Positions 8,129-61,424 of a stretch of DNA of 64,000 nt are shown here, piece after piece. The translations under genes were made by a program, and so were the position numbers. A model generated the notes under the pieces. It did no database searches. It worked only from the letters and a program-made list of their open reading frames with translations, and was not told the origin of the DNA. How positions within the stretch are numbered: position 1 is the stretch's first letter; every line of letters begins with the position of its first letter. Location: NCBI GenBank assembly GCA_019347805.1, contig JAHWKR010000004.1, positions 14,158 through 78,157 on the forward strand. Direction: 5' to 3'. Source of the stretch: Methanobacteriota archaeon (GTDB lineage Archaea; Thermoplasmatota; E2; JACPAO01; JAHWKR01).

Positions 8129-8264
8129 GACGGACGCCTATCCAAAGAGGCCCCTGATAGACCGTCCTCCCGGTTCGATTGGACATGTCTCGGAACGACC
8201 GATTGCCTTGCCGCCTTCGGCGGCTTCGGGCCAGGCGGTGTAGAGAAAGCGTCAGACGCCACCC

Positions 8265-8294
8265 TCACTCGAGGGTGGCGTGTCGCTTTCTCAT
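8265..8294 (-). pseudogene. reiterated hxlB tail, copy A (MRKRHATLE*)
   Basis: atgagaaagcgacacgccaccctcgagtga on the minus strand encodes the last 9 codons of hxlB with synonymous changes only. Confidence 0.85.
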
Positions 8295-8362
8295 GCTCGC
8301 GAGGCGGGCGCCGAAGGCGCCTCGCCAGAGCGCTCACTAGAGAAAGCAGACAGAAGCGACCC

Positions 8363-8392
8363 TCATTCGAGGGTCGCATGCCTCTTTCTCAT
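8363..8392 (-). pseudogene. reiterated hxlB tail, copy B (MRKRHATLE*)
   Basis: atgagaaagaggcatgcgaccctcgaatga on the minus strand encodes the last 9 codons of hxlB with synonymous changes only. Confidence 0.85.
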
Positions 8393-8456
8393 CTTCGTCG
8401 GCCCTGCCGCCTTCGGCGGCTTCGGGCTCGACGAAGTAGAGAAAACGCCGCGCCGC

Positions 8457-9053
8457 TCACTCGAGCGTCGCGTGGCGTTTTCTCATCGCCACCTCGGTCT
8501 GCCCCGTCCGCACCATCAGGTCCGCCACGAAGCCGTCGAGGAGGATCCAGGTCGCCGACTCGAAAAGCGTCCCGAGCGGTGCGAGCTGTTCCTGTTCCGG
8601 ACCCGGCCGTTTCGCAGGAAGCGCGAGGACGATGTCGGACAAAGCCGCGATGCCGGTCTTCTGGTTGTGCGTGATGGAGACCACGGTCGCCCCGATGTTC
8701 TTGGCGATCTCGGCGGTCATGACGACCGGATAGGTCTCACCGGAACCGGAGATGAGGAGCACCACGTCGCCTTTGGCGACCGGTGCGGTGATCGTCTCGC
8801 CGATGACGAAGGTCTGGTAGCCGAGGTGCATCAGGCGGATCGCGAAGGCACGCGCCACGAGCCCCGAGCGACCGGCGCCGTAGAGGAAGACGCGCTGGGC
8901 GTGCTCCAGGGCGGAGAGGGCCTCCTCGAGCCGTTCGTCATCGACATCGTCCAGGATGTCCTTGACCTGTCCGAGGACGTGGTCGACGCCACGGCGCAGC
9001 CGTATTTCGCCCTTCATCGTCATACCCCCTGGGCGGACCGTCGCCTGTTCCAT
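8457..9053 (-). CDS. hxlB: SIS-domain 6-phospho-3-hexuloisomerase
   Basis: SIS fold VFLYGAGRSGLVARAFAIRLMHLGYQTFVIGETITAPVAKGDVVLLISGSGETYPVV typical of PHI. Confidence 0.9.
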   Translation of the reverse strand: MEQATVRPGGMTMKGEIRLRRGVDHVLGQVKDILDDVDDERLEEALSALEHAQRVFLYGAGRSGLVARAFAIRLMHLGYQTFVIGETITAPVAKGDVVLLISGSGETYPVVMTAEIAKNIGATVVSITHNQKTGIAALSDIVLALPAKRPGPEQEQLAPLGTLFESATWILLDGFVADLMVRTGQTEVAMRKRHATLE

Positions 9054-45228: not shown

Positions 45229-45716
45229 GCTACGACCTCGCTCTGCCCCGTCCGCGTCCGCGTGTTCGCCACGAAGGCGCCACAGGACCGGCCCTTAAAG
45301 CCGTTCAGGGAGGGGCCGCCAAGCCACTTGAGAAGAAAAAGGGACCCGGGCCGGGAACAAGGTCTGGTGTGGGTAGGTGGGTCTGAGGCTCCTTCTGGTG
45401 GTACTCGGTCCGCCGACCCGAAGTCCCTGGCGCCGACGGCCGGGGAGAACGGGCCGTCGACGCTGGTGGCTGTCGCATGTCGCGCGCATACAGGATGCGT
45501 GCAAGAGAAGAGTGTCAGCCCCTGGTAAGATAAAGGATTGGGATGCCAGGGTTCCCATGTCGGATGAAGTGACCAAGGGGGAGGTCGGGGTAGAGAAGCT
45601 GTGTCTGGTGTGGTGGTCGGTAGGAGCAGATCCGGCCATCTGCGAGAAAAACGCTCGTGAAAAAGCGGTAAGGCGAGTTGCGAGAAAAGGGGCGTGAAAC
45701 GTGGGTACGGCGGGCT

Positions 45717-45747
45717 GCGGGGGAGGGAACAAATTTCCCTCCCCCGC
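45717..45747. other. perfect 13-bp GC-rich hairpin
   Basis: GCGGGGGAGGGAA-caaat-TTCCCTCCCCCGC. Confidence 0.85.
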
Positions 45748-45769
45748 GCCCCCCCTCCCTTTTTCGTTG

Positions 45770-46086: not shown

Positions 46087-46284
46087 GCGTCGAACGAGGC
46101 CCGGCGCGAACAGGAGTCCACGGAGTCCGGACCCGGCAAGGGACAAGCGACCCAATCGGGTCGCCGTGATGAACGTTTGGGTACGTCGTAGAAAAGAGCT
46201 GGGGTGGGGGAAGAGGAGGCCGGGAGCGGTCCACGGAGCGCGTCGCTGGGGTGCGGCGGAACCACGACGCGGGTGCGGGTTCCC

Positions 46285-46309
46285 GGGGAGGGGGCGACGC
46301 CCCCTCCCC
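46285..46309. other. perfect 12-bp GC-rich inverted repeat
   Basis: GGGGAGGGGGCG-a-CGCCCCCTCCCC. Confidence 0.85.
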
Positions 46310-46324
46310 AGACCCCACCCCTTC

Positions 46325-46610
46325 CTAGTATGGCCTCTGCATCACGGCATACTGGGCCTTGAAGAAGCGGAAGAAGATCCAGGCGAGGCTGCCGACCAGG
46401 AAGGCGGTCGCGACGGAGACCTTCCACAGCGCGTCATGGCTGGTGGCATAACGGCTGAACTGCAGTTCGAATCCGGCATGATAGGCGTTGACGACCAAGA
46501 GGATCATCGAGACCGCGAAGATGGCGATCACGATGAGGTCCGTGTAGAACAGGACTTTGTTCCACTGCCGCCGGTCGATGTGGCGATAGCGCTCGACGTC
46601 CATGTGCATC
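46325..46610 (-). CDS. small two-TM membrane protein
   Basis: MHMDVERYRHIDRRQWNKVLFYTDLIVIAIFAVSMILLVV...VSVATAFLVGSLAWIFFRFFKAQYAVMQRPY. Confidence 0.65.
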
Positions 46611-54631: not shown

Positions 54632-54682
54632 CTACGCGCCTTCGCTTCAGACAAGGACGAAGTGGGCCAGCAAGGCTTCCAT
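54632..54682 (-). pseudogene. 17-codon diverged remnant of the rfcS 3' end
   Basis: Minus strand encodes [15 protein letters not shown] versus the gene's [16 protein letters not shown]; nearly all differences are synonymous. Confidence 0.85.
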
Positions 54683-54751
54683 GTGCGCGACGGCGGTGAC
54701 CGGCGGTCGCCGCCGGACGCGCACACAGAGCGCTCAGAGCGCATGAGACCA

Positions 54752-54791
54752 CTTGTCGGCCGAGGCGCTATGCGCCCTCGGATCCGACAAG
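54752..54791. other. palindrome spanning the rfcS stop codon
   Basis: CTTGTCGG (54752-54759) ... CCGACAAG (54784-54791) with inner ccgaggcgc/gcgccctcgg. Confidence 0.8.
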
Positions 54792-55727
54792 GACGAAATG
54801 CGCGAGGAGTGCCTCTATCTGGATGCGCTCGTTGCTCCCCTCGACCATCCGGAACTCCGCCTCGCCGATGCGGTCGACGAGGCGCACCTTGAGCGGGTCT
54901 GAAACAGGCAGGTCGAAGACCGAGCGGTGGATCTGCCGGATGATGTCCTCACCCGACAACCCGTAATCGATGAGCATGTCGTCCAGCGAGGCGCGCGCGG
55001 CGAGGAAATCACCCTCGAGCGCCGTCGTGAGAAGCGCCTTGATCTGTTCCGGGCGCGCCGTCGAGGTGGTCTGGTAGACCGACTCGGCGTCGATCTTGCC
55101 ACCCACCGAGGCGGCCACCTGGAGGGCGTTCGTGACCCGGCGGGCGTCGCCGCGGGCGACATAGGTGATGGCCTCGAGGCCGTCGCCGGTCACTTCCAGG
55201 TCCTCGGTCTTGGCGATGCGGCGCACATACTCCTTGACGTCGTTGGCGCTGAGCGGCCGGAACCGGAAGACGGCGCAGCGCGACTGGATGGGCTCGATGA
55301 TCTTTGAGGAATAATTGCACGACAGGATGAAGCGGCAGGTCTGCGTGTAGCGCTCCATGGTGCGCCGGAGGGCCGCCTGGGCGTCATCGGTGAGGGCGTC
55401 CGCCTCGTCGAGGAAGATGATCTTGAACGGATGGTCCCCGATGGGCCGCGTGCGCGCATAATCCTTGATCTGCTTGCGCACGACCCCGATGCCGCGCTCG
55501 TCCGAGGCGTTGAGCTCGAAGAAGTTGCCGCGCCATTCGTCGCCGAAGAGCTCCCGGGCGAGCGCCATGGCGGAGGTGGTCTTGCCCGTCCCCGCAGGAC
55601 CCGCGAACATGAGGTGGGGCAGGTTCCCCGATTTCACGTAGGACTTCAGGCGCGCCATGACCTCTTTCTGGCCGACGACCTCGTCCAGTGCCTTGGGCCG
55701 GTACTTCTCGACCCAGACCTCGTGCAT
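54768..55727 (-). CDS. rfcS: replication factor C small subunit
   Basis: [109 protein letters not shown]. Confidence 0.97.
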
Positions 55728-61114: not shown

Positions 61115-61189
61115 GGGCACGTAGCCTAGCCCGGATATGGCGTGGGCCTCCTAAGCCCAAGATCGGGGGTTCGAATCCCCCCGTGCCCG
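61115..61189 (+). tRNA. tRNA-Arg(CCT)
   Basis: Cloverleaf: acceptor GGGCACG/CGTGCCC, anticodon arm TGGGC-CTCCTAA-GCCCA (CCT), T arm CGGGGGTTCGAATCCCCC; no encoded CCA. Confidence 0.92.
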
Positions 61190-61313
61190 TTTCGCTCCTC
61201 GCGTCGCTCGCGGTCCCGGTGGGAGACCGTCGCTGGCGCTCCGGAACCCCCCGTGCCCGTTTCGTTCCTCGCGTCGCTCACGGTCACGGTGGGAGACCGT
61301 CGCTCGCGCTCTG
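61173..61313 (+). repeat. two-copy ~70-bp tandem repeat containing the tRNA-Arg 3' end
   Basis: gaa(t)ccccccgtgcccgtttcg[c/t]tcctcgcgtcgctc[g/a]cggtc[c/a]cggtgggagaccgtcgct[g/c]gcgctc[c/t]g at 61173 and 61244. Confidence 0.92.
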
Positions 61314-61424
61314 GAATCCGTTCTCTCCCTTCGATCCCGTCCCTCTTCCTACTGTGTTCCGACCTCGACCCACCTTGTCCTAACCGACAATCGTTTAGAA
61401 GGAACGCCCTATAGGCTCCCCTGA

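Follow-up and report, generated by a model that had tools for sequence, protein, structure and literature searches.

Recoded copies of protein-coding gene ends in archaeal hairpin arrays: possible traces of very small palindromic elements

The arrays known as REP/BIME consist of alternating palindromes downstream of genes, and their sequence is common across the genes that they follow. Restoration at the end of a protein-coding gene is exemplified by e14 at icd of Escherichia coli, a classical phage integration target. Genomic islands at tRNA genes likewise restore their target and displace a fragment of it (PMC4383910). Rickettsia palindromic elements are short palindromic repeats lying in frame in core protein genes (PMC10969869). 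In fungal mitochondria, the insertion of an mORF supplies a synonymously different C-terminus and leaves the native one downstream, the cases of replacement being atp6 in Allomyces and atp6, atp9, cox2 and nad3 in Glomus sp. (PMC3630166). The arrays described here, found at the 3' ends of core genes in an archaeal draft genome, share features with each of these systems.

The first array lies at hxlB, in a window of 64,000 nucleotides (the whole stretch of DNA that was analysed), where the end of the gene is followed by two further copies of itself (Table 1). As the original prediction had stated, three 30-nt tails lie on the minus strand, all encode MRKRHATLE followed by a stop, and every change between them is synonymous; in pairwise comparison they differ by 4-6 nt. 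When the nucleotide differences of copies A and B were scattered at random, a synonymous-only outcome was obtained in about 3 of 10,000 trials, the weight of this test coming mostly from copy B. Simple duplication followed by drift proved an inadequate account of the conservation of this peptide, in agreement with what had been argued from the letters. Tails, inverted arms and three spacer hairpins tile window positions 8205-8486 (minus strand) without gaps. Folding of all three copies bore out the palindrome claimed over each stop codon: every copy is predicted to form a hairpin whose loop contains or adjoins the stop (-31.7 to -36.5 kcal/mol; coding-strand z -4.2 to -5.9). The entire stretch of 311 nt folds into a chain of six hairpins at -195 kcal/mol, with z -10.9 on the coding strand and z -13.9 on the plus strand. 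The spacer hairpin GCCGCCTTCGGCGGCTTCGGG, which had been proposed as common to the spacers, is present in spacers 1 and 3, and spacer 2 holds a different, UUCG hairpin; the ends of the latter resemble the module M discussed below, and it was not scored as M.

The hxlB sequence itself is confined to this place. Its half-motif pattern gave 3 matches in the window vs 0 in 100 shuffles, and a genome-wide search for the full motif returned 3 matches, all at the hxlB locus, with none among 292 other genomes of the phylum. A sequence-model search with the hxlB hairpin likewise matched the hxlB locus only, and an Rfam search returned nothing. A viral or plasmid source was considered and rejected, the spacing and context of the 9 viral matches to the hxlB pattern being different; no phage match was found, and plasmid matches were weak. 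Among relatives of the same class, conservation of the protein's C-terminus, M[RK]xRHATL[EQ], is strong, and the pattern occurs once per hxlB gene (genome G021 having two such genes), and no inverted tail follows the hxlB stop in the 3' flanks of relatives that were inspected. Copies A and B thus faithfully reproduce a conserved protein end, and MRKRHATLE is no side effect of hairpin formation.

Table 1. Features of the hxlB and RFC gene ends, in window coordinates.
Feature	Position	Strand	Remark
hxlB, host gene, 6-phospho-3-hexuloisomerase (SIS domain)	8457-9053	minus	
Tail copy C, native position, MRKRHATLE and stop, 5' arm of hairpin 1	8457-8486	minus	nine codons and stop
Inverted arm of copy C, 3' arm of hairpin 1	8437-8456	minus	
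Spacer hairpin S1	8393-8436	minus	26 of 27 core bases identical to S3
Tail copy B, MRKRHATLE and stop	8363-8392	minus	6 differences from C, synonymous
Inverted arm of copy B	8338-8362	minus	
Spacer hairpin S2	8295-8337	minus	ends GTGAGC ... GCGAGC, then ATG
Tail copy A, MRKRHATLE and stop	8265-8294	minus	4 differences from C, synonymous
Inverted arm of copy A	8241-8264	minus	hairpin of copy A is the strongest of the three
Spacer hairpin S3	8205-8240	minus	
RFC small subunit gene end, second example in the window	54768-54818	minus	16-letter tail
Inverted arm after the RFC stop	54752-54767	minus	
Recoded RFC tail copy	54632-54682	minus	15 protein letters

The idea that this arrangement is a peculiarity of hxlB did not hold, as about a dozen core genes of the genome, and genes of a second genome of the same order, show such arrays. 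In a scan for reiterated tails, which covered 764 kb and later 1.47 Mb (about half of the genome), roughly one in 80 core genes (about 1 percent of genes) was found to carry extra recoded copies of its own tail. The genes concerned were identified via Pfam or from their C-terminal sequence (NAC from its C-terminus); they include nusA-like, secY, pdxS, NAC, HIT, sucD and acyl-CoA dehydrogenase genes, a PurE/LarB-like gene, a gene ending in PDPPGF, an iron-sulfur protein gene with five tails, and the isocitrate dehydrogenase (ICD) and enoyl-CoA hydratase (ECH) genes, whose copies are near-identical. The gene for the small subunit of replication factor C (RFC), within the window at 54632-54818, also has an array; its downstream copy shows nine synonymous and two nonsynonymous codon changes and has TGA where the first tail has a Gly codon. 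The same-order genome, G001, carries arrays at the genes for TFB, SucD, acyl-CoA dehydrogenase, an IF5A/EF-P-like protein, aspartate dehydrogenase and a DUF7121 protein and at one more ORF, so that sucD and the acyl-CoA dehydrogenase gene have arrays in both genomes. About 0.8 Mb of controls (514 kb of class mates and E. coli; 250 kb of haloarchaea, Rhizobium and further E. coli) yielded no convincing case, the lone match being the low-complexity RQERQR of Natrinema. The histogram of tail identity is bimodal, with 7 genes at 8/8, 2 at 7/8 and 2 at 6/8, and shuffled tails placed no genes in the upper mode.

Other repeats were noted in the same material. In the window, a 70-bp tandem repeat occupies positions 61177-61316 (2 copies, 92 percent matches), and a separate family of very strong G/C-run hairpins of the type GGGGGAGGG ... 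CCCTCCCCC occurs at 45701-45760 and 46271-46330 and, elsewhere in the genome, at L093:1811, L100:15441, L088:15641, L080:13091 and L107:19491; with minimum free energies of -43 to -51 per 60 nt, these have the appearance of a dispersed repeat or of terminators. In contig C63, the stretch from about 84700 to 88300 (L098) repeats itself roughly every 1.3 kb; the ORF ends compared are identical, and the repeat is possibly tandem or an IS-like element. The end of icd (L103:12750-13060) carries three near-identical 60-bp units. Two further tail repeats, at L094:9296 and L116:14566, were discarded as scaffolding artefacts, being identical sequence on either side of N-runs (L094:9200-9560 and L116:14380-14700).

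The typical unit of the arrays can be written as T.T^R.M, where T comprises 3-16 codons at the end of the host gene together with the stop, T^R repeats T imperfectly in inverted orientation and so makes a hairpin over the stop, and M is a spacer. Units measure about 80-150 bp, spacers are 20-100 nt long and hold no ORF, and successive copies are spaced 50-250 nt apart. In 30 curated pairs of copies, 95 changed codons are synonymous vs 17 nonsynonymous, a ratio to be read with the caveat that candidates were picked by peptide similarity, which favours a synonymous excess. The changes include Ser TCG to AGC and a stop codon going from TGA to TAG. Among the diverged pairs, 61 of the 109 codons capable of synonymous change differ, vs 52 expected from independent draws under native codon usage, and by this measure such pairs appear to be near synonymous saturation with the peptide conserved. 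Divergence between copies forms a continuum that runs from 0 to 9 changes, few of them altering an amino acid, and no foreign codon usage was detected in first or last copies.

The palindromes and the tails are strongly coupled. Stop-centred palindromes are rare, occurring in 16 of 985 genes, and they coincide with tail copies, 7 genes having both (Fisher 1e-9); the base of the hairpin falls where the tail copy starts, as pdxS (about 16 codons) and secY (12 codons) show best. The hairpin is present in the first copy and absent from the last in 10 of 12 arrays (p 0.02, for a comparison chosen post hoc), hxlB being an exception in that its strongest hairpin is in the last copy. Some arrays consist of near-identical units, as with VSPIEIGA, ICD and ECH, and for these plain duplication is needed; in the HIT array, T3 resembles T1 and T4 equals T2, as after duplication of a dimer, and blocks of units have been duplicated in tandem.

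The spacers of nusA, ECH, HIT, NAC and pdxS align as one module, M, which reads GACGGTGA[GC]CCGAGC, a variable hairpin, GCGAGG[GC]GAAC and then ATN. The ATN codon adjoining the right end of M is in frame with the next tail. Among the final 20 codons of genes, ATN has a share of 5 percent, so that so consistent a junction is unlikely to be due to chance, with the reservation that the alignment of M was cut there. About 18-20 copies of M were found in the source genome with a sequence model, and none above threshold in the sample of the order, class or phylum. Candidate copies of M lie at C44:1591, C77:14658, C52:12482, C69:21428 and C70:63679-63872. Two genes were reached via M alone. One is GDH, whose two tails read ATT GTC GCC TGA and ATT GTC GCA TAA. 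The other encodes a MoaD/ThiS-like protein (L112:17931-18788, contig C72) in which two M units are read through in frame as a 51-residue C-terminal extension ending in IVPFIAGG, so that the IVPxIAGG end recurs at the extreme C-terminus. The function of MoaD/ThiS proteins depends on their di-glycine end, and the restored end is therefore what selection would demand. Outside this gene, M sits after the stop, in phase with the next tail. An antisense copy at about L008 1490-1545, between two exosome-type genes (identified by C-terminal and N-terminal sequence), has no tail copy and, together with its flanks, forms a hairpin on its own. The ends of M are weakly inverted at best; M is absent from some arrays, and the hxlB spacers S1 and S3 are not M. 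A viral source of M was rejected, since the 96 viral matches to a loose pattern (best E 0.02) look like chance.

The reading that we favour, to which we give about an even chance, is that tiny palindromic elements insert at gene ends with a recoded tail, displacing the native one, and that the resulting arrays duplicate. A non-autonomous palindromic element of about 80-150 bp would enter in frame, just before an Ile or Met codon near the 3' end of a gene; it would supply its own functional, differently coded tail, leaving the host gene unharmed, and push the native tail downstream, as happens with integrative islands at tRNA genes and endonuclease ORFs in fungal mitochondria. Later insertions and tandem duplications would then enlarge the array, and the peptide would persist because each copy was a real C-terminus until recently, in a donor lineage or here. 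In favour of insertion are the recurrence at unrelated core genes, the excess of synonymous changes and the saturation of diverged pairs, the coincidence of stop palindromes with tail copies, the presence of M in common at different genes, the GDH and MoaD-like tail copies reached via M, the hairpin asymmetry between first and last copies, and the fungal precedent. Counting against it are the lack of M in some arrays, the native-like codon usage, the reversed asymmetry of hxlB and the near-identical copies of some arrays. From the sequence, the structure of the unit, its phase, the recoding, the coupling of palindrome and tail, the module M and the tandem duplication are established; that the units move, by the action of an enzyme and from donors, is what we infer from them. 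No recombinase gene lies within any unit, and recombinase matches in the genome amount to one serine enzyme (C6:33439) and one tyrosine enzyme (C38:3653). The original prediction had also offered att-like scars. Insertion at the 3' end with restoration, as that proposal has it, is near to our best reading; the long element expected between the tails was not found, no larger element flanked by tail copies being seen over distances of as much as 200 kb within the contigs that were read, and the arrays are thus not scars of ordinary integrated elements. The few long-range tail pairs are identical-copy repeats and tandem paralogues.

The main rival to insertion is an unstable array kept in place: a unit of tail and hairpin is duplicated, the array goes on expanding and contracting, and contraction re-exposes downstream tails as the actual C-terminus, so that purifying selection acts on the amino acids of downstream copies too while synonymous positions drift and no foreign donor is required. 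We regard this as possible, if on the doubtful side. It accounts well for the continuum of divergence, and the native-like codon usage of both copies fits it, as do the near-identical units of the ICD, ECH, HIT and VSPIEIGA arrays and the dimer duplication at HIT; it poorly explains how unrelated genes come to have M in common with an in-phase ATN junction, why the hairpin is mostly absent from last copies, and how copies reached saturation without homogenisation. The two processes can be combined.

A role as tandem terminators or mRNA 3'-end hairpins, with the peptide retained merely through the hairpin, appears improbable. The strong hxlB hairpins do have A-rich and U-rich outer arms, and one hxlB copy fits a terminator-like pattern in a sequence scan; yet the changes obey a codon pattern, many last copies have the peptide without the hairpin, and terminator function alone, one of the options raised at the outset, leaves the conservation at the codon level unexplained. 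Stop palindromes as the ordinary terminators of this lineage were rejected as well, given how few genes possess them.

An assembly artefact is more improbable still. The genome is a metagenomic draft in 81 contigs, and two apparent repeats flank N-runs; against this stand arrays free of N-runs at about a dozen genes, matched compensatory arms, the shared module M, the case of in-frame read-through, and comparable arrays on a 377-kb contig of a second genome. Should insertion be the right reading, gene-end repeats in archaeal drafts may represent biology and not misassembly.

Least probable of all is that the downstream tails are translated, as selected mini-ORFs (a further option of the original prediction) or as a fallback for frameshifted ribosomes. 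Several arrays do have one copy per alternative frame, but the frame that runs from gene to copy is free of stops in 14 of 23 cases (0.61) vs a background of 0.60, that is, at chance, and frame 0 accounts for 6 of 30 copies, which is not significant. No ribosome-binding site could be recognised for hxlB copies B and A, and at most other genes the copies lack a start codon at their beginning. An apparent avoidance of frame 0, seen in a first list with almost every recoded copy out of frame, was dropped when the bias proved not significant in the full list.

To return to insertion by palindromic elements, we would tentatively suggest, with less confidence than for the insertion itself, that the units represent an undescribed minimal class of mobile element in an archaeal order, targeting the 3' ends of core genes and carrying a recoded mimic of the C-terminus paired with its own inverted copy. 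If true, the gene ends of this lineage would be replaceable, exchangeable cassettes, in which different DNA specifies the same peptide; insertion would be invisible at the level of the protein, the element evading selection by recoding the sequence of its host. It would also raise a testable question, namely how a gene-less parasite of about 100 bp inserts precisely and in frame while restoring many genes.

A literature search of partial coverage did not find this arrangement described in prokaryotes, and C-terminal replacement by fungal mORFs is the nearest precedent found. As there, an in-phase, differently coded C-terminus occurs at several core genes of one genome. Fungal mORF inserts include an ORF for a homing endonuclease, about 1 kb long in atp6, whereas the archaeal units of about 80-150 bp contain no gene; moreover, the archaeal tail pairs with an inverted copy of itself, and the units form arrays. 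With gene-restoring islands and prophages the arrays have in common a restored end and a displaced copy that is near-identical or synonymous, but no island, integrase or att core separates the archaeal tail copies. Like Rickettsia palindromic elements and MITEs, M is a short multicopy family that lies in frame in a protein-coding gene, the MoaD-like one; Rickettsia palindromic elements usually lie within genes and bring no copy of the host end, whereas the archaeal units are 3'-terminal with a gene-specific tail. As in REP/BIME arrays, two kinds of palindrome alternate 3' of genes, although in the archaeal arrays each tail palindrome is coding and specific to its gene. The arrays share part of each known definition and depart from it in other respects; without claiming membership in any of these families for them, we consider that they work like gene-restoring insertions.
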